Shown here: positions 444 through 39,924 of the stretch, piece after piece
How the letters are laid out: the number at the start of each line of letters is the position of its first letter
How positions within the stretch are numbered: the first letter of the stretch is position 1
Source: Bacteroidota bacterium
Lineage (GTDB): Bacteria > Bacteroidota > Ignavibacteria > Kryptoniales > JAKASW01
Direction: 5' to 3'
Length of the DNA stretch: 47,731 nucleotides
NCBI GenBank assembly: GCA_021789975.1
Contig: JAJYIT010000009.1
Coordinates: 78,557 to 126,287, forward strand
The notes under the pieces: generated by a model
The model's database searches: none
What the model was told of the DNA's origin: nothing
Seen by the model: the letters and a program-made list of their open reading frames with translations, nothing else
Program-made: the position numbers and the translations under genes

Positions 444-2057
444 ATGGCTAAGAACAATTTAACACGCAGACAGGTGATCAAGTCTATCGCAGTTGGCGCA
501 GTCGGAGCTGCAACGCTACCAAGAATGTTGATCGCTGAGACCGGAGCAAAGATTAATTTTCCAAATGTCCTTTCGCGAACGCCGGGGAAGAAGCCGAATT
601 TTCTTTTCATACTTGCCGAAGGGACACCGCTAGGAGCCATCGGTGCCTATGGCAGCTACCGGATGAAGACACCGAATATTGACCGACTCGCGACCGAAGG
701 CATGAAGTTGGAGAACGCATGCGTGACAAATGCCCTATGCTCGCCGAGCAGGGCAACTTTGCTAACCGGTACATATAGCAACGTAAACGGTATGACGGGA
801 AATGCAGGTGTTCCACCGCTCGGATATGACACCGATCTCTTCGACGGATCACAACTGACATTTCCAAAGGTTCTCAGAGACCACGGCTATCAGACTGGGA
901 TTGTAGGCAAATGGCATCTCGGAAGCACGCCGACCGGATTTGATTACTGGAACATCACTTACGAGCCTGCAGGTCCGTACTATGACCACACCTGGTACGA
1001 GAAGCCCGAGAAGAGCGGCGATGAAGAGAAGAATCCGGATTACACAAAGTACGGTATTAAGAAGTTGCACAAGGAGTACGTTACCGACCTCACTACAGAC
1101 CTTGCCATCAAATTCATGAAAAGCGCGCGCGAGCCTTTCTGCCTGATCTTTTCTCCCATCGCCGTCCATGGCCCGTTCGAGCCTCCTGATAAATACAAGC
1201 ACCTCTATGACAACGAAAGGATCGTAGAACCAGGAACGTTCTGGGATGATTACTCGAATCGTTCTGCCGCAGCAAAAGAAGCGCACATGAGAATAGAAGA
1301 CATGGGAAATTTTCAGTTCCCTGATCATGTCGCTGAACACCGCCCTAATGATCTAACGGACAAACAGCGAAAAGAGTGGAATTATCAGACATTCATTAAG
1401 GGCTTCAAAGGCACGATGAAGTCGCTCGACGACAACATCGGCCGTATGATGCATTCCCTTGATGAATCGGGTCTGAGGAATGACACCATAGTTATCTTCA
1501 CGTCTGACCATGGCCTGTTTCTGGGTGAGCACGGCTGGTTTGATAAACGATTCATGTATGAAGAAGCTATCAGGGTTCCTTGGATCATCCGCTATCCCGG
1601 CGAGATCAAAGCAGGAAGTACTGCAGATGCCCTTGCTCTCAATATTGATAACGCGCCGACCCTGCTCGATCTTGCCGGCTTGCCGGTTCCATCAGTGATG
1701 CAAGGCGTGAGTCTCAGGCCCATCTTTGAAGAAAAGACTACGTCCGACTGGCAGACTATGATGTACTATCATTACTATCCTCAGGGGCCGCCACATTTTA
1801 TCCTGCCGCACTACGGCATCCGAACGGATCGATATTCGTTGATAAACTACTACACGATCAATGAGTGGGAGCTCTTTGACAGGAAATACGATCCCGATGA
1901 GATGGACAGCCTCTTTGTGATGGGAGGTTATAAAGTCGACCCCAACTATGAAAAGACAGTGCCTTCGTTGATAGGCGATCTGAAAAAGCTTAGGGAAAAG
2001 TACAAAGACAGCACCGGCTCGAAAGTCAGGTTCTGGCCTACAAGTATGTACGACTGA
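444..2057 (+). CDS. Tat-exported S1-family sulfatase (Cys type)
   Basis: Hydrolyses sulfate esters or sulfamates, probably on a glycan, in the periplasm or at the cell surface. The N-terminus carries a twin-arginine signal (TRRQVIK at residues 7-13, then a hydrophobic stretch). The catalytic signature CSPSR at 99-103 is followed by ATLLTG; Cys99 would be converted to formylglycine. Other conserved parts are GKWHLG (K156, H158), VHGPFEPP (H242) and SDHG (D355, H356) with K368. Its 537 residues fit the family. The usual Asp-Asp/Asp-Gln metal pair after the first strand (LADD) is replaced by LAEG (E59, G60), so the N-terminal half of the calcium site is altered. The start follows AGGAGG by 8 bases. 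The maturase gene begins 17 bases downstream, so the two form an operon. The exact substrate is unknown. Confidence 0.93.
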   Translation: MAKNNLTRRQVIKSIAVGAVGAATLPRMLIAETGAKINFPNVLSRTPGKKPNFLFILAEGTPLGAIGAYGSYRMKTPNIDRLATEGMKLENACVTNALCSPSRATLLTGTYSNVNGMTGNAGVPPLGYDTDLFDGSQLTFPKVLRDHGYQTGIVGKWHLGSTPTGFDYWNITYEPAGPYYDHTWYEKPEKSGDEEKNPDYTKYGIKKLHKEYVTDLTTDLAIKFMKSAREPFCLIFSPIAVHGPFEPPDKYKHLYDNERIVEPGTFWDDYSNRSAAAKEAHMRIEDMGNFQFPDHVAEHRPNDLTDKQRKEWNYQTFIKGFKGTMKSLDDNIGRMMHSLDESGLRNDTIVIFTSDHGLFLGEHGWFDKRFMYEEAIRVPWIIRYPGEIKAGSTADALALNIDNAPTLLDLAGLPVPSVMQGVSLRPIFEEKTTSDWQTMMYYHYYPQGPPHFILPHYGIRTDRYSLINYYTINEWELFDRKYDPDEMDSLFVMGGYKVDPNYEKTVPSLIGDLKKLREKYKDSTGSKVRFWPTSMYD

Positions 2058-2074
2058 GCCTGTGAGGTGACGTC

Positions 2075-3433
2075 ATGCCGTATTCTGAGTTATTCCATAT
2101 CATGGTTAAGCCAATCGGACCGCTTTGCAATCTTGACTGCGAGTATTGTTTCTATCTTGAAAAAGAAAAGCTATATCCCGGCACCAAGAATTGGGGAATG
2201 TCAGACGAGGTATTGGAAAAGTACATCCAGGACTATCTCCAAGCCCAGGGAGGCTCTGAGGTCACTTTCGCGTGGCAAGGCGGCGAACCGACGCTGCTCG
2301 GAATTGATTTCTTTCTGAAAGCGGTTGAGATGGAAAGAAAATATGCGGAGAGTAGAAAGATAAAGAACACGTTACAGACAAACGGAGTGTTGCTGAACGA
2401 CGAGTGGTGCAAGTTCCTTTCTGAAAACGATTTTCTTGTGGGTCTTTCGATCGACGGTCCACGGGAAATACACGACAAGTATAGGGTGTTCAAAGGAGGG
2501 CAGCCTTCCTTTGACAAGGTGATGGCAGGGGTGAAGTGCCTCGTCAGTTACGGAGTGGAATTCAACACACTTACCTGTATCGAGCGTGATAACTCCTGCA
2601 AACCACTCGAGGTTTACGAATTCCTGAAATCCATCGGGAGCAGGTTCATGCAATTTATCCCCATCGTCGAAAAGCAAAGCACCGTCGTGGGGGAAGATAG
2701 CCGTGAAGATTCGCTTCTACATTTGGATAGCTCGGCAGTGACCGACTGGTCGGTAGAACCACTTCAGTACGGAAGATTCTTGACCAGCATTTTTGACGAG
2801 TGGGTGCGGCATGACGTTGGAAAATATTATATCCAGGTATTCGATGTGGCGTTGCAGATGTGGTACGGCCAGCCTTCTAGTCTCTGCATTTTTAGAGAAA
2901 CATGCGGTTCTGCACTTGCGTTGGAGCACAACGGTGACGTCTACTCGTGCGACCATTTTGTGACCCCCGAGAATATGCTGGGGAACATCATGGAGCAGTC
3001 GATGGGAAAGCTCGTCGGATCTGAAAAGCAGAGGGAGTTTGGACGCGACAAACGGTCGCCCCTCCCTAGTTATTGTCTTCGATGCAATGTTCGTTTTGCA
3101 TGCAATGGCGAGTGCCCTAAGAATAGGTTCATTCAAACTCCCGACGGCGAAGAGGGACTCAATTATCTTTGTGAAGGATACAAGCATTTCTTCAACCACA
3201 TCGATCCGTACATGAGATTCATGGCAAGCGAACTGGCCGAACAGCGTGCGCCTGCAAACGTAATGCAATGGATCATGGAAAAAGATGAAGGATTCCCTGG
3301 CTCGAAAAGAGGAAGGAACGATCCATGTCCTTGCGGAAGCGGATTGAAATTCAAGAACTGTTGTCAGAAAAATGGCCCGTCGGTGTTTTCGAAAAGTGGC
3401 AGATCGCGGGCATTGCCGGATCACAACAGTTGA
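2075..3433 (+). CDS. Anaerobic sulfatase-maturating enzyme (radical SAM, SPASM) with C-terminal SEC-C motif
   Basis: Converts the active-site Cys of the upstream sulfatase to formylglycine without oxygen, in the cytoplasm before export. The radical-SAM motif CNLDCEYC gives C18, C22 and C25 for the [4Fe-4S]-SAM cluster. SIDGP at 125-129 matches the conserved Asp region of the family. The SPASM cysteines are C271, C277, C292, C334, C337, C343, C347 and C366. After the usual end of the family there is a SEC-C type zinc motif, NDPCPCGSGLKFKNCC (C418, C420, C429, C430), and a short basic tail. The start follows GAGGTGA. Pairing with a Cys-type sulfatase supports the assignment and indicates an anaerobic life style. 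Confidence 0.93.
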   Translation: MPYSELFHIMVKPIGPLCNLDCEYCFYLEKEKLYPGTKNWGMSDEVLEKYIQDYLQAQGGSEVTFAWQGGEPTLLGIDFFLKAVEMERKYAESRKIKNTLQTNGVLLNDEWCKFLSENDFLVGLSIDGPREIHDKYRVFKGGQPSFDKVMAGVKCLVSYGVEFNTLTCIERDNSCKPLEVYEFLKSIGSRFMQFIPIVEKQSTVVGEDSREDSLLHLDSSAVTDWSVEPLQYGRFLTSIFDEWVRHDVGKYYIQVFDVALQMWYGQPSSLCIFRETCGSALALEHNGDVYSCDHFVTPENMLGNIMEQSMGKLVGSEKQREFGRDKRSPLPSYCLRCNVRFACNGECPKNRFIQTPDGEEGLNYLCEGYKHFFNHIDPYMRFMASELAEQRAPANVMQWIMEKDEGFPGSKRGRNDPCPCGSGLKFKNCCQKNGPSVFSKSGRSRALPDHNS

Positions 3434-3721: not shown

Positions 3722-3773
3722 TTGACAAAGGAAATCATGTCAGTTATATTCGTTTGTTGACCGAACGAACCAA
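3722..3773 (+). promoter_or_regulatory. Promoter and ROK-type operator 1 (receptor operon)
   Basis: TTGACA (3722-3727) and TATATT (3745-3750) are separated by exactly 17 bases. A 25-base imperfect palindrome at 3749-3773 overlaps the -10 end and expected start site. Its arms are TTCGTTTGTT and AACGAACCAA around a 5-base centre, with 8 of 10 pairs complementary. The centre and right arm match the site at 31112-31136 almost base for base. The layout resembles XylR-type ROK operators (recalled form TTAGTTTGTT-N5-AACAAACTAA), so repression by the ROK protein at 34118 is inferred. Confidence 0.75.
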
Positions 3774-4178: not shown

Positions 4179-7097
4179 ATGATCAAAAGACTACCATCTA
4201 CAATGAAAGCGTTGTCCGTAATGATCTTATGCTTTGCAAGCGGAGTACTCGCAGCAAGCTCAAGCATCGAAGGTTCGGTAAAAGATGCTCAGACTGGTCA
4301 TCCGCTTCCGGCGGCGACCGTGTTCTTGAAAGGCACCAGTTTTGGCGCGTCGACTGATCTGAACGGCAGATATGAAATCAGAGATGTGCCGCCTGGCACA
4401 TATACATTTCGGGTCAGTTACGTCGGCTACAAGACAAGGGAAATCCGGGTTACCCTCGCCGAAGGAGAAAAAGCGAGACGAGAATTCAAGCTGGAGCCGG
4501 TCGGTGTGCAGGGGAAGAACGTTCTTGTAACTGCACAGGCCAGCGGTCAGGCACAGGCCATCAACCAGGAGCTGTCATCAGACAACATCATAAGCGCAGT
4601 ATCGGCGGCGAAGATACGCCAGCTGCCGGACGAGAATGCGGCCGAGTCTGTTGGGAGATTGCCTGGAGTATTTGTGTTGAGGAGTGGAGGGGAAGGATAC
4701 GCAGTGGTGATCCGCGGAATGGCGCCTCAGTATAACGAAGTTACGATAAACGGAATCGAGATGGGATCATCGAACCCAAGTAATCGTAGCACTAACCTGA
4801 GCATGGTATCGTCGAACATGCTTGAAGGGATACAGGTGTCAAAGACGGTTACGCCCGATATGGATGCGAACGTGATAGGTGGAGTTGTGAACTTCGATAT
4901 GAGAGAAGCACAGGTAAAGAAGCCAGGTGTGCCGGAGTTTAGTTTCCTTGCGCAGGGAGGATACAATAATCTTTCTGATGCTTACAACAGATACAACAAC
5001 TACAAATATGTGGGGAGTGTCGAGGACAGGTTGTTCAACGACAAACTTGGCGTGTTCGCGCAGGTGGATATCGAGAGGCTGAACCTTACTTCCAACGAGT
5101 TGGGAAGTTCCTACACGTACTTCGGCAACAGCCTGTCCCAGTACGTGATATCAGGAGTAACACTTTTCGATATACCGCGGGACAAGAGACTTTACAATGG
5201 TGCACTCGATCTGGATTATGAATATTCAGGAGGGTCGATCAAGCTGATGAACTTTCTGAGTACTGGGACAACCAGTTCGCAGCAGCGATCGCAGTCGTTC
5301 AGCGTCAGCGGAAACATGCTTTACTACGGGTTGTCGGGGGCAAGCACTATATTGAACACGATTTCAGATGTGCTGGACTTCAAGCAGAAACTTCCTGTTT
5401 TCGAGATGGACGTAAGGCTGGGCCACACTTACTCAGAGACCAAATCACCCAACAACTGGGACGTCCAGTTTTCACAGACTTCTGCAAATCTCAGCCAGTT
5501 GAGTAGCATGTTGAATATCGCCCCGCAGGCGGTTGTGAACGCGGCAAACCGGGACCTTTCTGCTACATATCTCTACTATCTTGACAACACGAGCAGCTTC
5601 TCGCGGTCGCGTGCATTGACGGCGGCACTCGATTTAAAGACCAATATCAATTTCTCTGATGCGGTGTCCGCGGTGATAAAGTTCGGAGGCGAAACCAGAT
5701 ACACGACGCGGTCATATCTATTCAATGAGTATGACACGGCTCAACTCCTGAATTCAGGGAGTGCGCTGTCTCTCGACAACATGATTACTTCGTACTTCTC
5801 TCTGCCGACAGGGAATTTTCAAATTCCCATAACTGATTTTCTGGATCCGAACTATAGTTATGGCAAGTTTCTAAACGGTGATTATACGATGAGTGCACCG
5901 ATAAGTTTCGGGATGATGTCAGAACTTGCGGGGTATCTGCAGGGGAATGCGCAATATATCGATTCAACGATCGGTCCAAGCAATTACGGTCACGACAACT
6001 ATGCTTCGACGATACCGAGCTACTCGGGGCATGAGAATCCGAATGCCGCTTACGCGATGGCGACTGTGAAAGTTGGTTCTCAGGCTACGGTGATCGGTGG
6101 AGTGAGGTTTCAGACGTTCCAGTCATCGTATACTGGAGTTGCAGGCGTGACGAGTCCCGAATCGTATTACGTATACAACCACTACGACACAACCATTACC
6201 CGGTATCACGGCTATTGGTTGCCGGACATCACTCTACGATACGATCCTGTATCGTGGTCTGACATTAGGCTTTCCTACACAAACACATTGTCCTATCCGA
6301 GTTTTTCCAATTACGTGCCCAGAATAGACCTATCGGGGATAACGGTCGGGTGGAACAACAACGGGCTTGTACCGGCGCATTCGATGAACTACGATGCGGC
6401 TGTCTCCATTTACAATAACACGATAGGACTTTTCACGGCAGATGTATTTCTCAAGAAGATTCGGAACATGGTGTACTCATGGACGTTCTTCCTGAAGGGA
6501 CAGGATGCGCTGACATACCTGCCGCTGAACCTGGCGAATTACAATCCTAATGCGACTTATCAGATATCTACGACTGAGAACAATCCATACCTGAACACTG
6601 TATATGGAGTGGAGCTCGACTGGCAGACTCACTTCTGGTATCTGCCGGGAATATTGTCTGGATTGGTGCTTGACCTGAACTATACGCACACGAAATCCCA
6701 AGCGAAGTATCCATATGTGCTGTCGGTATCAAACGGACGAACACTGAAATACGTCGACACATCGTTTACGGATCGGCTTGTGGATCAGCCTGACAACATA
6801 TTCAACCTTTCACTTGGGTATGACTACCGCGGATTTTCGGTAAGGGTAGCGATGGTATATCAGGCAGGGATATTCACGGGAGCGAGTCAGTGGCCACAGC
6901 TAAGGGGGTACACAGCAGCATACAGACGTTGGGATGTCGCGGCCAGGCAGGAACTGCCGTGGCAAGGTCTTGAAGTATACGCCGATCTGAATAACATCAA
7001 CGCAGCGAACGACGTGCAGATAATACAAGCTGGAGTCCCAACGGCGATAGAGGACTACGGTTTCACAGCTGACATGGGAGTCCGTTGGAGATTATGA
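4179..7097 (+). CDS. TonB-dependent receptor with N-terminal carboxypeptidase-D-like domain
   Basis: Outer-membrane channel for TonB-driven uptake of a ligand, here probably a glycan fragment. The start at 4179 is chosen because AGAGGAAA precedes it and a normal signal peptide follows (basic, then a hydrophobic stretch ending VLAAS). Residues about 28-105 form a carboxypeptidase-D regulatory-like beta-sandwich (GTSFGASTDLNGRYEI, PPGTYTFRVSYVGY). The plug domain follows (about 130-250; QLPDENAAESVGRLPGV, VVIRGMAPQYNEVTINGIE), including a KTVTPDMDANVIGGVVNFD segment like that of the TonB-Xanth-Caul receptor group. The rest is a beta-barrel ending on aromatic/basic residues. No SusD lipoprotein follows, so this is not a classical SusCD pair. 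It is the first gene after operator 1, with the two beta-helix genes 46 bases downstream. Confidence 0.92.
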   Translation: MIKRLPSTMKALSVMILCFASGVLAASSSIEGSVKDAQTGHPLPAATVFLKGTSFGASTDLNGRYEIRDVPPGTYTFRVSYVGYKTREIRVTLAEGEKARREFKLEPVGVQGKNVLVTAQASGQAQAINQELSSDNIISAVSAAKIRQLPDENAAESVGRLPGVFVLRSGGEGYAVVIRGMAPQYNEVTINGIEMGSSNPSNRSTNLSMVSSNMLEGIQVSKTVTPDMDANVIGGVVNFDMREAQVKKPGVPEFSFLAQGGYNNLSDAYNRYNNYKYVGSVEDRLFNDKLGVFAQVDIERLNLTSNELGSSYTYFGNSLSQYVISGVTLFDIPRDKRLYNGALDLDYEYSGGSIKLMNFLSTGTTSSQQRSQSFSVSGNMLYYGLSGASTILNTISDVLDFKQKLPVFEMDVRLGHTYSETKSPNNWDVQFSQTSANLSQLSSMLNIAPQAVVNAANRDLSATYLYYLDNTSSFSRSRALTAALDLKTNINFSDAVSAVIKFGGETRYTTRSYLFNEYDTAQLLNSGSALSLDNMITSYFSLPTGNFQIPITDFLDPNYSYGKFLNGDYTMSAPISFGMMSELAGYLQGNAQYIDSTIGPSNYGHDNYASTIPSYSGHENPNAAYAMATVKVGSQATVIGGVRFQTFQSSYTGVAGVTSPESYYVYNHYDTTITRYHGYWLPDITLRYDPVSWSDIRLSYTNTLSYPSFSNYVPRIDLSGITVGWNNNGLVPAHSMNYDAAVSIYNNTIGLFTADVFLKKIRNMVYSWTFFLKGQDALTYLPLNLANYNPNATYQISTTENNPYLNTVYGVELDWQTHFWYLPGILSGLVLDLNYTHTKSQAKYPYVLSVSNGRTLKYVDTSFTDRLVDQPDNIFNLSLGYDYRGFSVRVAMVYQAGIFTGASQWPQLRGYTAAYRRWDVAARQELPWQGLEVYADLNNINAANDVQIIQAGVPTAIEDYGFTADMGVRWRL

Positions 7098-31040: not shown

Positions 31041-31300
31041 AGATGGAATTGTCACTCATTTGAGACATTTAGCCGGAGTTTCCTTGACAGGAGAAAAACA
31101 GGGTGTTATATTTAGTTTGTTGACCGAACGAACTAACATTGTCAAGCTAATGAGACCTGAAGTGCGTATTGCTATTGTGGTATCGGATCATCTCGGTTCT
31201 TCTTTAAGTATCGTGCGCAATACACTAAAGAAATGGAGTTTATGTCATACCTTGAATCAATTAGTCCGCATCTAACTTCGATGGAGGTTCTCATTCAATC
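31041..31300 (+). other. 260-base intergenic leader with promoter/operator 2
   Basis: The gap contains the promoter and operator described separately, followed by a leader of about 180 bases. A weak hairpin (GTATTGC 31166-31172 with GCAATAC 31217-31223) lies in the leader. The ribosome binding site GGAGG at 31282-31286 is somewhat far from the ATG at 31301. No small gene is supported. Confidence 0.5.
31084..31136 (+). promoter_or_regulatory. Promoter and ROK-type operator 2 (GHL10 gene)
   Basis: TTGACA (31084-31089) and TATATT (31107-31112) are 17 bases apart. The 25-base palindrome at 31112-31136 has arms TTAGTTTGTT and AACGAACTAA around GACCG, with 9 of 10 pairs complementary. This is the best of the three sites. 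It matches the recalled XylR-type ROK operator in the whole left arm and all but one base of the right arm. Its position over the start site implies repression. Confidence 0.8.
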
Positions 31301-33832
31301 ATGAGTCGATTCTCTTGGAGAATTTGCTTGTGGAGCATCTTTCTTTCAGTATCCGTGAATGCAGCAACTTTTCCTAACCCAGAGACGCGAGGCGTGTGGA
31401 TAAGCGGAAGCTACCTTCAAGGCGGATCCAACTCTATCGAAAATGTGATACGAAACCTGAGCCAGGCGAATTTCAACACCATCTATGTTGATGTCTGGTA
31501 CAGAGGCTCTACGATCTATCCAAGCCAGGTTGTCCAGGACGCTGGCGGCCCTCTTCAAAATCCTTCGTTTTCTGGCAGCGATCCTCTGGAAACAACTATC
31601 CAAATTGCACATCGATATGGCATGGAGGTATTTGCGTGGTTTGAATATGGGTTCATGGTCGGAAACAGTGGCGACTCAACAGCCGTTCCTGCTATCTTGA
31701 AGGTACATCCCGACTGGGCGATGGTGCAAAGGGATACAACAAAACATTTCCTTCACACATCTTACGGTTACTACTTTGCGGTGGACCCGAGTGTAAGTGC
31801 GGCATCGGACTTTATCGTTAACATGTACAATGAGTGCGCAAGGAACTATCCTGATCTCGATGGGATAGAGACAGATATTGAGAACGATACCAGCGTGTCC
31901 TACTCCGATACTTCACGGATTCGATTCATGAGAGAAACAGGCGACCCCGATCCTCTAACTCTTCCAGCAGACAATCAGGCATGGCTGTCGTGGCGGCGTC
32001 TTCAGATAACTGATGTTGTAAAGCGAATTTACCAAGCTGTTAAGGCTGTCAACCCCCAGTGTGTAGTAAGCAGCGCAGTACCTCCGCCCTACATGTCAAA
32101 CTATATGCTCGAATCGTGGGACATATGGGCCAAGAGCGGTTACCTTGATATGGCGGAACCAATGCTCTACCTCAACACCGGTGATTTTGATAACCAGATG
32201 AGCCTTTGCAGCGATTATATCCCGCAAGGGTTCCAGTTGTCTCCCGGCATAGATATGAGCTCAGCCGGTTCTGTCTCAAATACTATCTATGAGATCCAGG
32301 ATGCGGTAAGGAGAGGCGTTTCAGGTGTCACCATATGGTACTATGGCTATCTAAGCACTTACGCCAATGCTTTCGCAGAGTTGAAGTCGTCCGTTTTTCC
32401 TACAAAGACCGCTCCTAGCTATGACGACCTTGTCATGGATAATTTCGCGGCAGGAACCTTTCGCTCCACCGGATCATGGATGACACAACGTGGAGGCTAT
32501 GGCGGCAATTACGTCCTGGCGCGCGCCGTTTACGGAGACACAGCAATCTTCTCAGTGCGAATATTGCGGAGTGGCAGCTACAGTCTTTATGGATACTGGA
32601 GTGGTGACTCCTCTTCGAATTGCGCTGATGCGATAGTACAGACCGGCACTCTACATATACTCAGATCAGACACTGTTGACCAAACAAAGGATCTGAACAC
32701 CTGGTCATATATCGACAAGTTCCAGTTGAACTCAGGCGACACAGTGACCGTGAAGCTGTTCGGGGCGAGCGGAGGAAATTTGATTGCAGATGCTTTCCGC
32801 CTGAGACGCGGCAGCCCATTTGTGTTGAGCGACTATGCCGTTCCTGACAGCCAAACTATCCTAATGAAGTTCTCCGATCCTCTTCTTAGCCCCATCTCAC
32901 CCATCACTAGAATATCCACCCAGACTGGCGGTCAAATTCTGAATGCCTTTGTGGACCCAAGTGACAATACTATTCTGCACGTGATGGTTGCACCAATGCG
33001 CCAGGGTATCCCGTTGATGTTAAATGTGATCGATTTGCTCGACGCATCGTTTGACACACTCAGCATGTCGCAGACTCTATCCTATGATCCTGACAGTACG
33101 ATGTTCACGATAGACGATCAGACTCCAGGCCTATTCTGGAAATTAACGGGGATCTGGACAGAAGATACAAGCATGTCTGCGGTCGATGGCAGCTATTGGT
33201 TTGCCAAACAAGGTCCTCAAGCCGTGCGCGCGCAATGGGGCCCATTTCAGATCACCACAGACGGTTACTACGATGTGTATGCAAGAATTCCTGCTGTCAA
33301 TATTCCACTCAGCGGAAGATGTTTGTATGTAGTCAAAGATCATTTTGGAATGGATTCGGTCTATATCTCACAGGCTGCGGAGGCCGGGAAGTGGGCTGAC
33401 CTCGGTAATTTCCCTCTAAGAGATGGTGATTCCTTTGCCGTTCTTCTTTCGTCCGTAGTCGGTTCAGACACTGGTCAGTATCTTGTTGCAGATGCCGTGA
33501 TGTTGACGAGAGCCGTTCAGATCACCGGCATCTCCATGGCGGGTTCCGTCCCTAAGACTTTCCGCGTATTTCAGAACTATCCCAACCCATTCAACCCTGA
33601 GACACTCATAGCTTTTCAACTTCCGGGCGCAGGACTGGTCGACGTAACAATTTACAATTCATTGGGTGAGCGAGTTGAAGATCTCGTTCGCAATCAAACA
33701 TACCAAGAAGGATCTTGGAATGTGAGGTTTGATGGCGCCCGCTATCCGAGCGGCGTGTATTTTGCCTCCGTAAATGTCAGTGGAGGGACATTCTCTGGTA
33801 GGAAGATAATAAAGATGGTTCTTATAAAGTGA
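31301..33832 (+). CDS. GHL10-family hydrolase with two golvesin-like domains and T9SS sorting domain (paralogue 3)
   Basis: 843 residues. The signal peptide ends about VNAAT. The GHL10 barrel spans about 25-370 (PETRGVWISGSYL, TIYVDVWYRGS, FAWFEYG with E115, GIETDIEND with E190, D192 and E194). Golvesin-like domain 1 is about 385-505 and domain 2 about 605-745, each ending ADA(F/V)xL. The T9SS domain is about 757-843 (QNYPNPFNPET, IYNSLGERV, SGVYFASVNVSGG, KIIKMVLIK). It is the only gene between operator 2 and the ROK promoter, so it is probably induced with the receptor operon. Its loop after FAWFEYG differs from the other paralogues. Confidence 0.86.
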   Translation: MSRFSWRICLWSIFLSVSVNAATFPNPETRGVWISGSYLQGGSNSIENVIRNLSQANFNTIYVDVWYRGSTIYPSQVVQDAGGPLQNPSFSGSDPLETTIQIAHRYGMEVFAWFEYGFMVGNSGDSTAVPAILKVHPDWAMVQRDTTKHFLHTSYGYYFAVDPSVSAASDFIVNMYNECARNYPDLDGIETDIENDTSVSYSDTSRIRFMRETGDPDPLTLPADNQAWLSWRRLQITDVVKRIYQAVKAVNPQCVVSSAVPPPYMSNYMLESWDIWAKSGYLDMAEPMLYLNTGDFDNQMSLCSDYIPQGFQLSPGIDMSSAGSVSNTIYEIQDAVRRGVSGVTIWYYGYLSTYANAFAELKSSVFPTKTAPSYDDLVMDNFAAGTFRSTGSWMTQRGGYGGNYVLARAVYGDTAIFSVRILRSGSYSLYGYWSGDSSSNCADAIVQTGTLHILRSDTVDQTKDLNTWSYIDKFQLNSGDTVTVKLFGASGGNLIADAFRLRRGSPFVLSDYAVPDSQTILMKFSDPLLSPISPITRISTQTGGQILNAFVDPSDNTILHVMVAPMRQGIPLMLNVIDLLDASFDTLSMSQTLSYDPDSTMFTIDDQTPGLFWKLTGIWTEDTSMSAVDGSYWFAKQGPQAVRAQWGPFQITTDGYYDVYARIPAVNIPLSGRCLYVVKDHFGMDSVYISQAAEAGKWADLGNFPLRDGDSFAVLLSSVVGSDTGQYLVADAVMLTRAVQITGISMAGSVPKTFRVFQNYPNPFNPETLIAFQLPGAGLVDVTIYNSLGERVEDLVRNQTYQEGSWNVRFDGARYPSGVYFASVNVSGGTFSGRKIIKMVLIK

Positions 33833-34117
33833 AGGATGATTTCCAAGTGGGTGCCGGAAGAGGTAAGCTCATTGTCAGGTCGAAACGTGGCTGCTCAGCG
33901 ACAGCAAATTTATGGCACTTATTGGCGAATTACTTGCCTGGGCGAGGTCAAAAGAATATATTTGTTTCCAGGGCGAACAAACCACCATTCGGTGTCAGTA
34001 TGATTGGAGAGGGGCCTACGGGCAAAGTCAGCGCAGCGGGCTATCCTCGGTCAGTTGACGCCTGCTGGAATTTGCGCCTCCGGTTGAGATCCATTGAACC
34101 GAATTCAGGAGACTGAT
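33833..34117 (+). other. Intergenic region with ROK-gene promoter
   Basis: About 285 bases between the GHL10 and ROK genes. An open frame on the + strand crosses all of it, but it runs through the promoter/operator annotated at 33934 and has no recognisable content, so it is not called. The expected transcript start near 33969 leaves a leader of about 150 bases. Confidence 0.5.
33934..33985 (+). promoter_or_regulatory. Promoter and degenerate ROK-type operator 3 (autoregulation)
   Basis: TTGCCT (33934-33939), 17 bases, then TATATT (33957-33962), the same layout as the two other sites. A 25-base site at 33961-33985 keeps the left GTTT and a strong right half GCGAACAAACCA. In the best alignment it matches operator 1 at 16 of 24 positions, but the inner left arm is changed. 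It lies directly upstream of the ROK gene, so weaker self-repression is inferred. Confidence 0.5.
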
Positions 34118-35401
34118 ATGCTTGACTTTCTTTCTCAGAAGATGAAAGCCATCGGGGAACCGAGCGCTGCTGTCAAAGTTTTAAAATTTGTTCGTGAGAA
34201 GGGAACTACATCCCAAACCGAGATTGCCAGGAGTTGTCAACTGTCAAAGGCAGCCGTTTCGGAAGTAGTGCAGAGACTTTTGGCGGACGGTTATCTTCAG
34301 GAAGTGGGGATGTCCTCATCAACAAGCAGCGGTGGCCGTCGCCGTGTCTTATTGAAATTCAATTCGCTTTCCGGTCTCGTGATAGGAGTCGATGTTAAGA
34401 TATCGTCCGCAACGCTGGCGCTATCCGATCTCGATGCGACCATACTATCCAAACGCGAGATAAAATTCCCCAAAGGGGCGACACCTCCCGACGTGATCCC
34501 AATGTTGGTCAAGGCAGCGCATGAAATCCTGTTGGCAAAGCCCCAGTCTTCCGGAAGTCTTATTGGTATAGGCATCGGTATTCCCGGCATCATAGATTAC
34601 TCCACCGGCACCCTTGTAGTTGCTGACACTCTAAAAGGATGGGACGGCGTGAGCATCACTCAAATGTTCGAGTCACACTTTGGGTGCGCCGCATATGTGG
34701 AGAACGATGTCAAGTCCATGACGATAGCGGAATACTTGTTGGGAATCGCCAAAGGTGTTCAGAACTTTGTTCTACTCTGGGTTGGCAGCGGCGTAGGTGC
34801 CGGCATTATGGTTGACGGAAGACTTTTGCGCGGCGTCACCTCCAGTGCCGGAGAAATCGGATACAACGACCTCGGATTTTCCGTCGGAAACGGATCTAAT
34901 TTTCCGCTTCTCTATAACGGCCAGAAAGATTTCGGCGACCTTCTCTCTGAGGATTCGATAGTTGATGCCTATGTCCGTGCCGCGGGGAATAAGATTGCAG
35001 AACCGCCCTCATTCGAGACCATCCTTGACCTTGGGTCGAAGGGCGACGTTGTGGCTGAGAACATATTTCGTGAGATGGGCCGGGTAGTCGGCATCATGAG
35101 TATAATGCTGGCCAACACCCTCAATCCTGAACTCATAGTATTGGGGGGTAGCGTCATAGACTCCAATCCGCAGGTGCTCCGGGAGGTATCTGAGTTTATG
35201 AGCCGGGACATACTTCCGACACCGGTCCAAAGCGTCCGCATCGAGCCGGCTCACTATAAAGCGGACGAAGTTCTGCTTGGTGCTATTGGGCTGATCCTGT
35301 ACGAATTGTTTGAGCCTGCGATGCCTTTAATGATTATGAAACAACGTCCCAGAAAAGTATCGGAGCCCCGCGCTACGCGAGTGCTCGGCCAAGGAGTCTG
35401 A
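34118..35401 (+). CDS. ROK-family transcriptional repressor
   Basis: 427 residues. ATG 34118 follows AGGAG at 34107-34111. The N-terminal winged helix-turn-helix (about 15-85) reads TSQTEIARSCQLSKAAVSEV, then VVQRLLADGYL and a GGRRR wing. The ROK domain follows (VIGVDVKISSATLALSDL, IGIGIGIPGIID, YVENDVKSMTIAEYL, WVGSGVGAGIMVDGRLLRG). The CxCGxxGCxE zinc motif of ROK kinases is absent, as in some ROK regulators of the Thermotoga type. It should sense a sugar or sugar phosphate and release DNA. Operator-like palindromes at 3749, 31112 and 33961 are its predicted targets. It heads a run of co-directional genes to the kinase fusion and NanE. Confidence 0.88.
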   Translation: MLDFLSQKMKAIGEPSAAVKVLKFVREKGTTSQTEIARSCQLSKAAVSEVVQRLLADGYLQEVGMSSSTSSGGRRRVLLKFNSLSGLVIGVDVKISSATLALSDLDATILSKREIKFPKGATPPDVIPMLVKAAHEILLAKPQSSGSLIGIGIGIPGIIDYSTGTLVVADTLKGWDGVSITQMFESHFGCAAYVENDVKSMTIAEYLLGIAKGVQNFVLLWVGSGVGAGIMVDGRLLRGVTSSAGEIGYNDLGFSVGNGSNFPLLYNGQKDFGDLLSEDSIVDAYVRAAGNKIAEPPSFETILDLGSKGDVVAENIFREMGRVVGIMSIMLANTLNPELIVLGGSVIDSNPQVLREVSEFMSRDILPTPVQSVRIEPAHYKADEVLLGAIGLILYELFEPAMPLMIMKQRPRKVSEPRATRVLGQGV

Positions 35402-37051: not shown

Positions 37052-39190
37052 ATGTCGTACCTTAAACCAGACCAACCGGAATACAATCACCTAAGGCACC
37101 TTGTACTTCTTTACGGTGCTGCCGGGAGACCTTGGACAAAGGAGGAATTGAAGTACTACGTTGCGCATCTTGATTCCGATGGCCGTCCTGACGATTGGTT
37201 CTACGATTCATTCTTGTTTATAAATACAAAATTCAAATCCGGGGCCGATTGCGTTGCAGATGTGAACTTAGGCAAATCGATGTCCGGCGAAGGCGATTTC
37301 TTTGCAATGTGCTCGCCGAATCCTTCCGACAAGGATGACTGGGAAGAGCTTCTGGATTTTTATCTCGGCAAAGGTGGAGCTTTGCAGACACTCGATGACA
37401 CCGTCGGTGAAATGTCCGCCGGTATCGGGTCTGCGGTCTGCAAGAGAAACGTAGTCCTCACGCTTCCATATCCACACATTACGCAGGAAGCGTTCGGGGC
37501 AATAGACGGGTCGGGCCACAACCTGAATTTTTCCATAAAGGGACAATCGCTTTCCCCTGCGACTGATTCGCGTCTGAAGGCTGAAACCTGGTTTATGGAA
37601 GAGGTCGTTAGAAGGTGGAGTGAACGACGGTACAAGAACCTGAACTTGCTCGGAATGTATTGGATATTTGAGACAGTCTATAGATCCTGGGAGGTGGATG
37701 ACCATATCCTCCTGAAAGAGCTCCGGAAAGTAATAAACTCGAAAGGACTCAAGTTCCTCTGGATTCCGTTTTACGCTACATACAATTTTCATCTTCTTGA
37801 AAGTTACCAGGACTACTATTTTGACGCGGCATTTCTTCAACCGAACTTTCTATTTTATAAAGAAGGCAAGACGATCGAGATGGCATCAGCCGTCGCGAAA
37901 AAATGCGGTGCCGGTCTGGAGATGGAATATTACATGGACCTGAACGAGCCGATCTCCATCAAGAACGAAAGGCACATCAGGTTCAGAGAATACCTCAATG
38001 CCGGAGTGAAGTACGGCTACATGAACGGATCTGCCTGTGCTCACTTCCAGGGAGCGGGCTCGTTGGAGCGAATGTACAATCACAAAGATCCAGTTGAACG
38101 GGAATTCTATGAAGATATTTATCACTTCGTCAATGGTACCTATCAAGTCAAAACCTATCCGCCTCCTCCTCCTCGATGTATTTTCGTACCGGGGAGCCGG
38201 GCCGCGGTAGCCATAGATCTTGGTGGAACAAATTTGAGAATGGGAGTTGTAGATAACTCAGGGAAGGTCCTTCATTGGAGCCAGGTGGAAACACCCCCTG
38301 ATAAACAGCTGATTCTCCACTCAGTAGTCGCGAAGGTGCAAGAAGGGTTGAGGTTCTGCAAGGCGAACGGCCTGACGCCTGTGGGAGTCGGAGTAAGTAC
38401 CGGTGGAAGAGTAGACTTCGAAAAAGGTGAAGTCGTCGATTCGACATCTCTGATACCCGGATGGAAGAACGTCGAGATCAGGAACGCCATTGAATCCGGT
38501 GTTGATATTTCCGTTGTCGTCGATAACGACGGCAACTGCTCTGCCGTGGCGGAGAGAGTTTTCGGGAAAGCGAAATGCGTCGACAATTTCATATCCATTG
38601 CGTTAGGTACCGGCATAGGCGGAGGCATTTACGTCGACGGGAAGTTGCTCCGCGGACAAAACAACTTCACTGCGGAAATCGGCCATGTGAGCGTCAATTC
38701 GGATGGGCCGCTCTGCTCCTGCGGGAATCGCGGTTGTGTGGAATTGTATGCTTCCGGATCAGGCCTCGTGAGATGGGCCAGAGACGAATTTCCCCTGCTA
38801 TCGGACCTGGCCGCGCGAGACAGTCTTTCTGCTAAAGAAATCGGAGATATGGCGCGATCCGGAGATCGTGTCGCAATCGATTTGTTGAAGAAGGCGGGTG
38901 AGAAGCTGGGTATAGCCGTTGCCGGTTTTGTGAATATCTTCAATCCTTCTATGATCGTGATTTCCGGGAGTCTTCTAGGATTAGGTGCTCCCTACTTCGA
39001 TGCCTTCGAGAGCACCGTACGCTCACGTGCCATCAAGCCGACAGCAGACGCTTTGAGGATTGAATTCTCCGATCTGCGTAACGAGGCAGGGATTCTCGGC
39101 GCTGCCGCAACCGCGTTCGGGGATTCGATGGCGGGCCCACTGCGTGTCAAGGCTGTCAAGCCGAAGCAGGATGGAGAGACCGATGATTGA
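37052..39190 (+). CDS. DUF4855-ROK sugar kinase fusion protein
   Basis: 712 residues without signal peptide, so cytoplasmic. Residues about 5-370 match DUF4855 (PF16147): GMYWIFETVYRSWEVDD with E207, LKFLWIPFYATYNFH, FDAAFLQPNFLFYKEG, GLEMEYYMD. This is a TIM-barrel-like family of unknown activity often found in glycan loci. A proline linker (370-374) leads to a complete ROK kinase: DLGGTNLR at 389-396, VDNDGN with catalytic D493, ALGTGIGGGIYVDG, and the zinc site H545, C555, C557, C562 (CSCGNRGCVE). The kinase half probably phosphorylates an N-acetylhexosamine or glucose. NanE follows directly, which favours N-acetylmannosamine. The N-terminal half may hydrolyse or bind the imported oligosaccharide. 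The frame is continuous, so the fusion is not an artefact of annotation. Confidence 0.87.
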   Translation: MSYLKPDQPEYNHLRHLVLLYGAAGRPWTKEELKYYVAHLDSDGRPDDWFYDSFLFINTKFKSGADCVADVNLGKSMSGEGDFFAMCSPNPSDKDDWEELLDFYLGKGGALQTLDDTVGEMSAGIGSAVCKRNVVLTLPYPHITQEAFGAIDGSGHNLNFSIKGQSLSPATDSRLKAETWFMEEVVRRWSERRYKNLNLLGMYWIFETVYRSWEVDDHILLKELRKVINSKGLKFLWIPFYATYNFHLLESYQDYYFDAAFLQPNFLFYKEGKTIEMASAVAKKCGAGLEMEYYMDLNEPISIKNERHIRFREYLNAGVKYGYMNGSACAHFQGAGSLERMYNHKDPVEREFYEDIYHFVNGTYQVKTYPPPPPRCIFVPGSRAAVAIDLGGTNLRMGVVDNSGKVLHWSQVETPPDKQLILHSVVAKVQEGLRFCKANGLTPVGVGVSTGGRVDFEKGEVVDSTSLIPGWKNVEIRNAIESGVDISVVVDNDGNCSAVAERVFGKAKCVDNFISIALGTGIGGGIYVDGKLLRGQNNFTAEIGHVSVNSDGPLCSCGNRGCVELYASGSGLVRWARDEFPLLSDLAARDSLSAKEIGDMARSGDRVAIDLLKKAGEKLGIAVAGFVNIFNPSMIVISGSLLGLGAPYFDAFESTVRSRAIKPTADALRIEFSDLRNEAGILGAAATAFGDSMAGPLRVKAVKPKQDGETDD

Positions 39191-39228
39191 ACTTGTTGAT
39201 CTCGTTTCACCAATCTCAGGAAATAAAA

Positions 39229-39924
39229 GTGATTAAGCTAGGGAAAGGATTGATCGTCTCTTGCCAGGCAGAGGAGGGAAGTCCGTTCAACTCTCGACAA
39301 TTCATAGCCGCCTTTGCTGTGGCGGCCGAACTTGGCGGTGCTATAGCTGTCAGGGTTCGTGACCCGGAAAACGTGGCAGCCGTGAAGATGGCCACAAGGC
39401 TTCCAATAATAGGTCTTACAAAAGCTTCCTACCCGGACGGAAACGTGCTCATTACGCCGTCGATCGGAGATGTTCAGGCACTCGTTGACGCTGGTGCTGA
39501 CTTTGTGGCAGTTGATGCGACTAATAGAAATCGACCAGATGGAATTGCCGGTCCTGAATTTCTGAGGTTCGTGAAATCCAAGATAGCTAAACCTGTGATA
39601 GCGGACATCTCTAATCTTGACGAAGCATTAGTCGCCGTCGATGCTGGAGCCGATTATGTTGCAACGACTTTGTCCGGCTATACCGGGAAGAGCGATTCTC
39701 CGAAGGATGAACCCGACTTCGAGCTTGTGAGAAGCGTCTCAGCACGCACGAGGACGCCTGTGATCGCTGAAGGAAGGGTCTGGACTCCGGAGCAGGCGAG
39801 AGAGGTATTGGAGAGCGGGGCTCATGCAGTTTGTGTGGGCACAGCCATCACGCGACCGGTCGCTGTCATTGCGAGATTTGTCAAGGCGCTTTCTGTGAAC
39901 AGACCTGCGGAAGCAACCAGATGA
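39229..39924 (+). CDS. nanE: N-acetylmannosamine-6-phosphate 2-epimerase
   Basis: Converts N-acetylmannosamine-6-phosphate to N-acetylglucosamine-6-phosphate in the cytoplasm. The family pattern is complete: GLIVSCQA, AVRVRDPENV, PIIGLTKASYPDGNVLITP with the catalytic Lys (K65), VDATNRNRPDG, TTLSGYTG and TPVIAEGRVWTPEQA with the catalytic Glu (E181). GTG 39229 is chosen because AGGAAA lies 8 bases upstream and homologues begin close to the GLIVSCQ block. The frame is open back to a TTG at 39187, overlapping the stop of the kinase fusion, so a longer form is possible. Coupling to the ROK kinase gives a two-step kinase-epimerase module. No nanA (sialate lyase) is seen, so the ManNAc source would not be sialic acid cleavage within this window. 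Confidence 0.92.
   Translation: MIKLGKGLIVSCQAEEGSPFNSRQFIAAFAVAAELGGAIAVRVRDPENVAAVKMATRLPIIGLTKASYPDGNVLITPSIGDVQALVDAGADFVAVDATNRNRPDGIAGPEFLRFVKSKIAKPVIADISNLDEALVAVDAGADYVATTLSGYTGKSDSPKDEPDFELVRSVSARTRTPVIAEGRVWTPEQAREVLESGAHAVCVGTAITRPVAVIARFVKALSVNRPAEATR

Follow-up and report, generated by a model that had tools for sequence, protein, structure and literature searches.

A predicted ROK-family repressor and its putative operators in a TonB-receptor/T9SS polysaccharide-degradation cluster of an Ignavibacteria-related bacterium

Sugar-responsive ROK repressors are generally released by sugar. In Paenibacillus, XylR represses by steric hindrance at the promoter, and Bacillus XylR forms a roadblock further along, past the -10 box (PMC9104551). 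In Bacteroides thetaiotaomicron, the ROK regulator NanR (BT0433) is linked to the use of sialic acid and N-acetylglucosamine (PMC3878776). The ROK regulators of Thermotoga maritima (XylR, ManR, BglR, ChiR and others) serve single saccharide clusters, sometimes with several sites each (PMC3750489). A search of a literature library returned no publication that describes an Ignavibacteria ROK regulon. Here, a window of 47,731 nucleotides (the whole stretch of DNA that was analyzed) is described, in which one sugar-sensing repressor very probably keeps a polysaccharide-degradation cluster silent via two near-identical promoter switches. The genome that contains the window, which was scanned as a whole, is Ignavibacteria-related (4.7 Mb, 85 contigs, 98% complete).

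Promoter-operator elements and surrounding genes

A first-pass annotation of the window had described a TTGACA-N17-TATATT promoter running into a 25-base palindrome at 3722-3773 and the same design at 31084, 27 kb away; both were present as claimed (Table 1). At site 1, the -35 box TTGACA (3722-3727), a 17-bp spacer and the -10 box TATATT (3745-3750) lead into the palindrome TTCGTTTGTT-GACCG-AACGAACCAA. At site 2, TTGACA (31084-31089), N17 and TATATT (31107-31112) lead into TTAGTTTGTT-GACCG-AACGAACTAA. Both palindromes are imperfect, with arms complementary at 8 of 10 positions (site 1) or 9 of 10 (site 2), and both promoters scored 11/12 in a promoter scan. TTGACA is conserved, and TANNTT is compatible alike with a classical -10 box and with the Bacteroidota -7 box TAnnTTTG, whose start it fits (PMC9723704). 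Each site holds a XylR-type inverted repeat, 25 bp overall. The B. subtilis XylR operator consensus TTNGTTT-AAACNAA, which the annotation had given in agreement with the published form, fits both with one changed base each (PMC9104551); the arms read TTCGTTT...GAACCAA and TTAGTTT...GAACTAA, and the departure lies in the right arm.

When up to 3 mismatches were allowed, a scan of the window returned two places only (4 strand hits), operators 1 and 2; 100 shuffles gave a mean of 0.10 and a maximum of 2. With up to 2 mismatches in the whole genome, operators 1 and 2 were found with 0 mismatches and one other site with 2, and the palindrome thus had no exact copy in 4.7 Mb besides these two, each before genes of this cluster. 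A weak third copy, TTGCCT-N17-TATATT with TTTGTTTCCAGGGCGAACAAACCAC, lies before the ROK gene. It has 4 mismatches at specified positions, shares the promoter register of sites 1 and 2, and scores low alone; it explains the mention of three sites in the annotation. In the whole genome it did not reach E 10 with a held-out sequence model (see below), and its assignment is based on a position-weight score, the promoter register and the orthologous sites.

Table 1. Features of the window and the evidence for them
Feature	Coordinates	Strand	Details
Promoter of TonB-dependent receptor operon	3722-3750	+	-35, -10 and spacing kept in orthologous promoters of 3 other species
Operator 1, 25-bp imperfect palindrome overlapping the -10 box	3749-3773	+	Held-out motif, conserved block
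TonB-dependent receptor, first gene after operator 1, leader about 420 nt	4179-7097	+	Pfam Plug, TonB_dep_Rec_b-barrel, CarbopepD_reg_2; TIGR01782
Eleven further co-directional genes, putative operon	7144-31040	+	Internal gaps up to 137 bp
Promoter 2, TTGACA-N17-TATATT	31084-31112	+	Sequence and promoter scan
Operator 2	31112-31136	+	Pattern scans; held-out motif E 1.6e-5
Secreted GHL10 glycoside hydrolase-like protein, Golvesin_C domains, T9SS tail, behind operator 2	31301-33832	+	
Weak third promoter-operator	33934-33985	+	TTGCCT 33934-33939, N17, TATATT 33957-33962, degenerate palindrome 33961-33985
ROK-family transcriptional repressor (predicted)	34118-35401	+	Winged HTH, LSKAAVS recognition helix, GGRRR linker, ROK domain
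Probable downstream catabolic genes: DUF4855-ROK sugar-kinase fusion and NanE (N-acetylmannosamine-6-phosphate 2-epimerase)	37052-39924	+	

Many of the proteins encoded behind site 1 carry T9SS sorting tails. The genes that follow the receptor encode two T9SS-tailed proteins without another Pfam domain, a NAGPA domain (x2), DUF4623, GHL10 (x3), DUF4434, a protein without a Pfam hit, DUF5009 and GH31. Behind site 2, the order is the GHL10 protein, the ROK regulator, the DUF4855-ROK-kinase fusion, NanE, a second DUF5009 protein and an AmpG-like transporter. The NanE assignment is above its NCBIfam cut-off (258.6 vs 189 bits), and nagA is located elsewhere in the genome. This gene content suggests that the substrate is probably a glycan that contains amino sugars. 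When plasmids were searched with the GHL10 protein, the matches were distant and family-10-like only. As separate observations, the single open frame at 37052-39190 that joins DUF4855 to a ROK sugar-kinase domain is conserved in three relatives, and just ahead of the receptor operon (444-3433) lie a sulfatase gene and then a gene for a radical-SAM/SPASM protein, a possible sulfatase-maturing enzyme.

The ROK protein and the conservation of its putative sites

The predicted regulator has a C-terminal ROK domain (PF00480, E 7.4e-41, 141 bits, cut-off 22.9) and an N-terminal winged helix-turn-helix (PF13412, E 6.2e-7), and is therefore described as a diverged ROK-domain protein; repressor structures align with it from residue 18. 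The zinc motif H...CxCGxxGC, common in the ROK family, is absent from its ROK domain, where GEIGY...PLLYNGQKDFGDLLS is found instead. The Pfam ROK model does not require this motif. It was lost in 8/8 aligned members of the clade, six other ROK proteins from the class retain it, and aligned orthologues from Ignavibacteria-related genomes have GEIGY...P[LM]LYxGQxDxGxxLS where the zinc motif would be. This loss is a real departure of the clade and its one unusual feature.

Among the 13 genomes of the genus, four encode an orthologue of the ROK protein (its own, G057, G112 and G118; 61-65% identity), the best ROK matches in the others having at most 29% identity. The GACCG-type palindrome is present in exactly the same four. 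It lies upstream of the orthologous TonB-receptor gene in 4/4, upstream of the ROK gene in 4/4, and before the GHL10-hydrolase block in 3/3 genomes in which that upstream region is assembled (the G057 contig starts inside the block). This co-occurrence is partly co-inheritance, the ROK orthologue and the sites sharing one gene cluster. In the aligned receptor leaders, the -35 box and the -10/operator block are conserved and the remainder has diverged. MAFFT placed gaps in an alignment that included the -35 box, and the sequence model was therefore confined to the -10/operator block. Built from G118, G112 and G057 only and run on the whole held-out genome, it recovered operator 1 (E 3.5e-8) and operator 2 (E 1.6e-5), and the next best match had E 0.13, none being significant beyond these two. 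Before the orthologous ROK genes, the site has the perfect pattern in G118 and is moderate in G112 and G057, about 85-130 bp upstream. The autoregulatory site of the own genome is degenerate, though strong or moderate in these three relatives.

Several further features of the genus were noted. At the receptor and hydrolase sites of the window, G118, G112 and G057, the half-sites are asymmetric (GTTTGTT left, GTTCGTT right) in an orientation that is constant with respect to the promoter; the sites before the ROK genes of the relatives have the opposite orientation. In the leaders of G112 and G057 (L066 8323-8769 and L069 4096-4512), an open frame of ~140 aa fills the gap between operator and receptor; the G112 protein has no Pfam match, and the receptor leader of the window has no open frame of at least 90 aa. 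In G057, a motif site (L067, contig C16, 631-655) stands ahead of a LacI-family gene at a second TonB-receptor locus, which hints at a regulator cascade. A related palindrome, TTAGTTGGTT...AACCAACTAA, was found in two genus genomes (L070 10225-10249 and L071 7314-7338), flanked by a glucosamine-6-phosphate isomerase-like gene and a gene for a 780-aa protein without a Pfam match.

When 391 genomes of the class were scanned blind, 15 contained the symmetrical pattern, compared with two hits for the reversed control. Of the ten palindrome loci inspected in other families, nine lay just upstream of a ROK gene and the tenth before a glycosyltransferase gene. When the single ROK protein was the query against genome contigs, no relative was found; an eight-orthologue alignment, searched against named genomes, reached Ignavibacteria, 'Bacteroidetes' MAGs, Calditrichota and Marinimicrobia. 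At these orthologue loci, a site with at most 2 mismatches was present within 400 bp upstream in 10/29; the controls gave two sites in 306 kb elsewhere, 0 with the reversed pattern and 0/27 at distant ROK loci. Another 17/29 lacked a site in the upstream 400 bp when up to 3 mismatches were allowed, a set that includes some contig edges, possible operon-internal genes and other phyla with diverged motifs. In Ignavibacteria the geometry is constant: a TTGACA-like box, 17 bp (18 once), a TANNTT-like box and the operator, which starts one to two bases inside the -10 box or three bases past it. The two Calditrichota sites are without a clear promoter of the TTGACA-N17-TANNTT kind. In several Ignavibacteria, the ROK gene adjoins TonB receptor, NAGPA or GHL10 genes. 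Some relatives seem to have tandem operators with a 4-bp offset, which would recall B. subtilis xyl, but these were set aside because the 4-bp periodicity of the motif itself yields such hits.

Proposed regulation and alternative readings

Comparative genomics supports the proposal of the annotation that the ROK protein at 34118 would control the receptor operon. The link between palindrome and ROK protein held in partly independent tests: co-occurrence in the genus, conservation of the orthologous promoters, blind recovery of ROK genes, the upstream sites of relatives and specificity among paralogues. It is highly probable on these comparisons that the palindromes are operators of this protein, jointly silencing the cluster until a sugar inducer appears; that the protein binds them, that it represses and does not activate, and what kind of sugar induces are what we infer. 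When no inducer is present, the ROK protein would occupy 25 bp, from the end of the -10 box across the expected transcription start (near 3757 at site 1 and 31119 at site 2), a position from which its occupancy should exclude or trap RNA polymerase, so that the promoter would not be opened. The receptor operon (4179 to about 31040) and the hydrolase gene at 31301 with the genes after it would thereby be silenced, and the ROK gene itself would be weakly repressed. Breakdown of the target glycan would release a sugar, probably an N-acetylhexosamine or the phosphate of one, which would bind the ROK domain and free the operators, and uptake, extracellular hydrolysis and catabolism would be switched on together.

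The operators might instead belong to a different DNA-binding protein, either a LacI-type regulator or a further ROK paralogue, with the neighboring ROK gene coincidental. The genome does encode several ROK regulators, and one G057 site precedes a LacI-family gene, but the recognition helices of the other ROK regulators differ: the window protein is alone among the HTH-bearing ROK regulators of its genome in having an LSK helix. Genus paralogues with LSF helices often go with a different palindrome, as at L009, which has CTTATT-N11-AATAAG sites instead. This sequence occurs exactly twice in the genome of the window, each time immediately before the same LSF-type ROK gene. The lysine of the recognition helix is common to ROK proteins of other families that bear the GTTnGTT palindrome, and in those families the palindrome stands ahead of ROK genes, not LacI genes. 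Ownership by another protein is very improbable. As a side observation, the two CTTATT-N11-AATAAG copies (contig C47, 39176-39250; L169 and L170) are 52 bp apart and suggest a second ROK operator code.

Activation by the ROK protein from the same sites was also weighed, since some ROK-family regulators have dual roles. Against it, operators that reach from the end of the -10 box over the start region are in a position typical of repression, and the -35 and -10 boxes are near consensus; this reading is very improbable. Least probable is an RNA element, a 5' transcript hairpin controlling stability or translation, which was judged unlikely after a fold test: the operator does follow closely on the -10 box, and the strong sites can fold as RNA at -6.8 and -8.6 kcal/mol, but the expected start is inside the palindrome, so that the transcript would hold only part of it, shuffled sequences fold as well as the own ROK site (z 0.17), the G118 ROK site retains five pairs only, and the marking of ROK genes by the pattern is left unexplained.

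Comparison with known ROK systems

Repression of the cluster by the ROK protein, as predicted from sequence comparison, would be a new, well-supported example of a familiar form of bacterial control, ordinary in kind. Few regulatory data are available for this group, and a candidate operator, promoter and regulator can now be named for a large cluster of glycan-use genes within it. Scans of Ignavibacteria with the motif could predict regulons and the sugars concerned, and the promoter-palindrome unit might serve as an inducible part. We suggest, tentatively, that the zinc-less ROK clade across Ignavibacteriota, Calditrichota and Marinimicrobia might form a dedicated switch whose targets include, at least in Ignavibacteria, TonB-receptor/T9SS polysaccharide loci. 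Control would be by derepression, unlike that in Bacteroides, where the known activators are of the SusR, hybrid two-component or sigma/anti-sigma types, and a changed effector pocket might occupy the position of the zinc site.

The window protein and XylR are alike in the ROK fold, the N-terminal winged HTH and the Arg/Gly-rich linker. They differ in the zinc motif, which the window protein lacks, in their genes (a TonB receptor/T9SS hydrolase cluster vs xylose genes) and in operator position, the window operator overlapping the -10 box whereas the B. subtilis xyl operator lies between the -10 box and the ribosome-binding site (PMC9104551). No xylA or xylB xylose gene was found among the window proteins scanned, and the protein, which would work like XylR, is not classed as a XylR orthologue. 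The sites indicate that the use of XylR-like operators extends well beyond Firmicutes, where they apparently serve other sugars.

The closest solved structure by sequence is Lmo0178 of Listeria monocytogenes (PDB 5F7P/5F7Q, E 2.5e-41), which shares the HTH, Gly/Arg linker and ROK domain but, unlike the window protein, has retained the zinc ligands H and C-x-C-x4-C. With NanR (BT0433), compared by function and family only, the likeness lies in the NanE and ROK-kinase domain of the window cluster; unlike that of NanR, the putative regulon includes an outer-membrane receptor and many secreted hydrolases. In regulon organization, the T. maritima ROK regulators are similar, one regulator being dedicated to one saccharide cluster, although they belong to a different phylum and go with ABC transporters, whereas the window cluster has TonB receptors.
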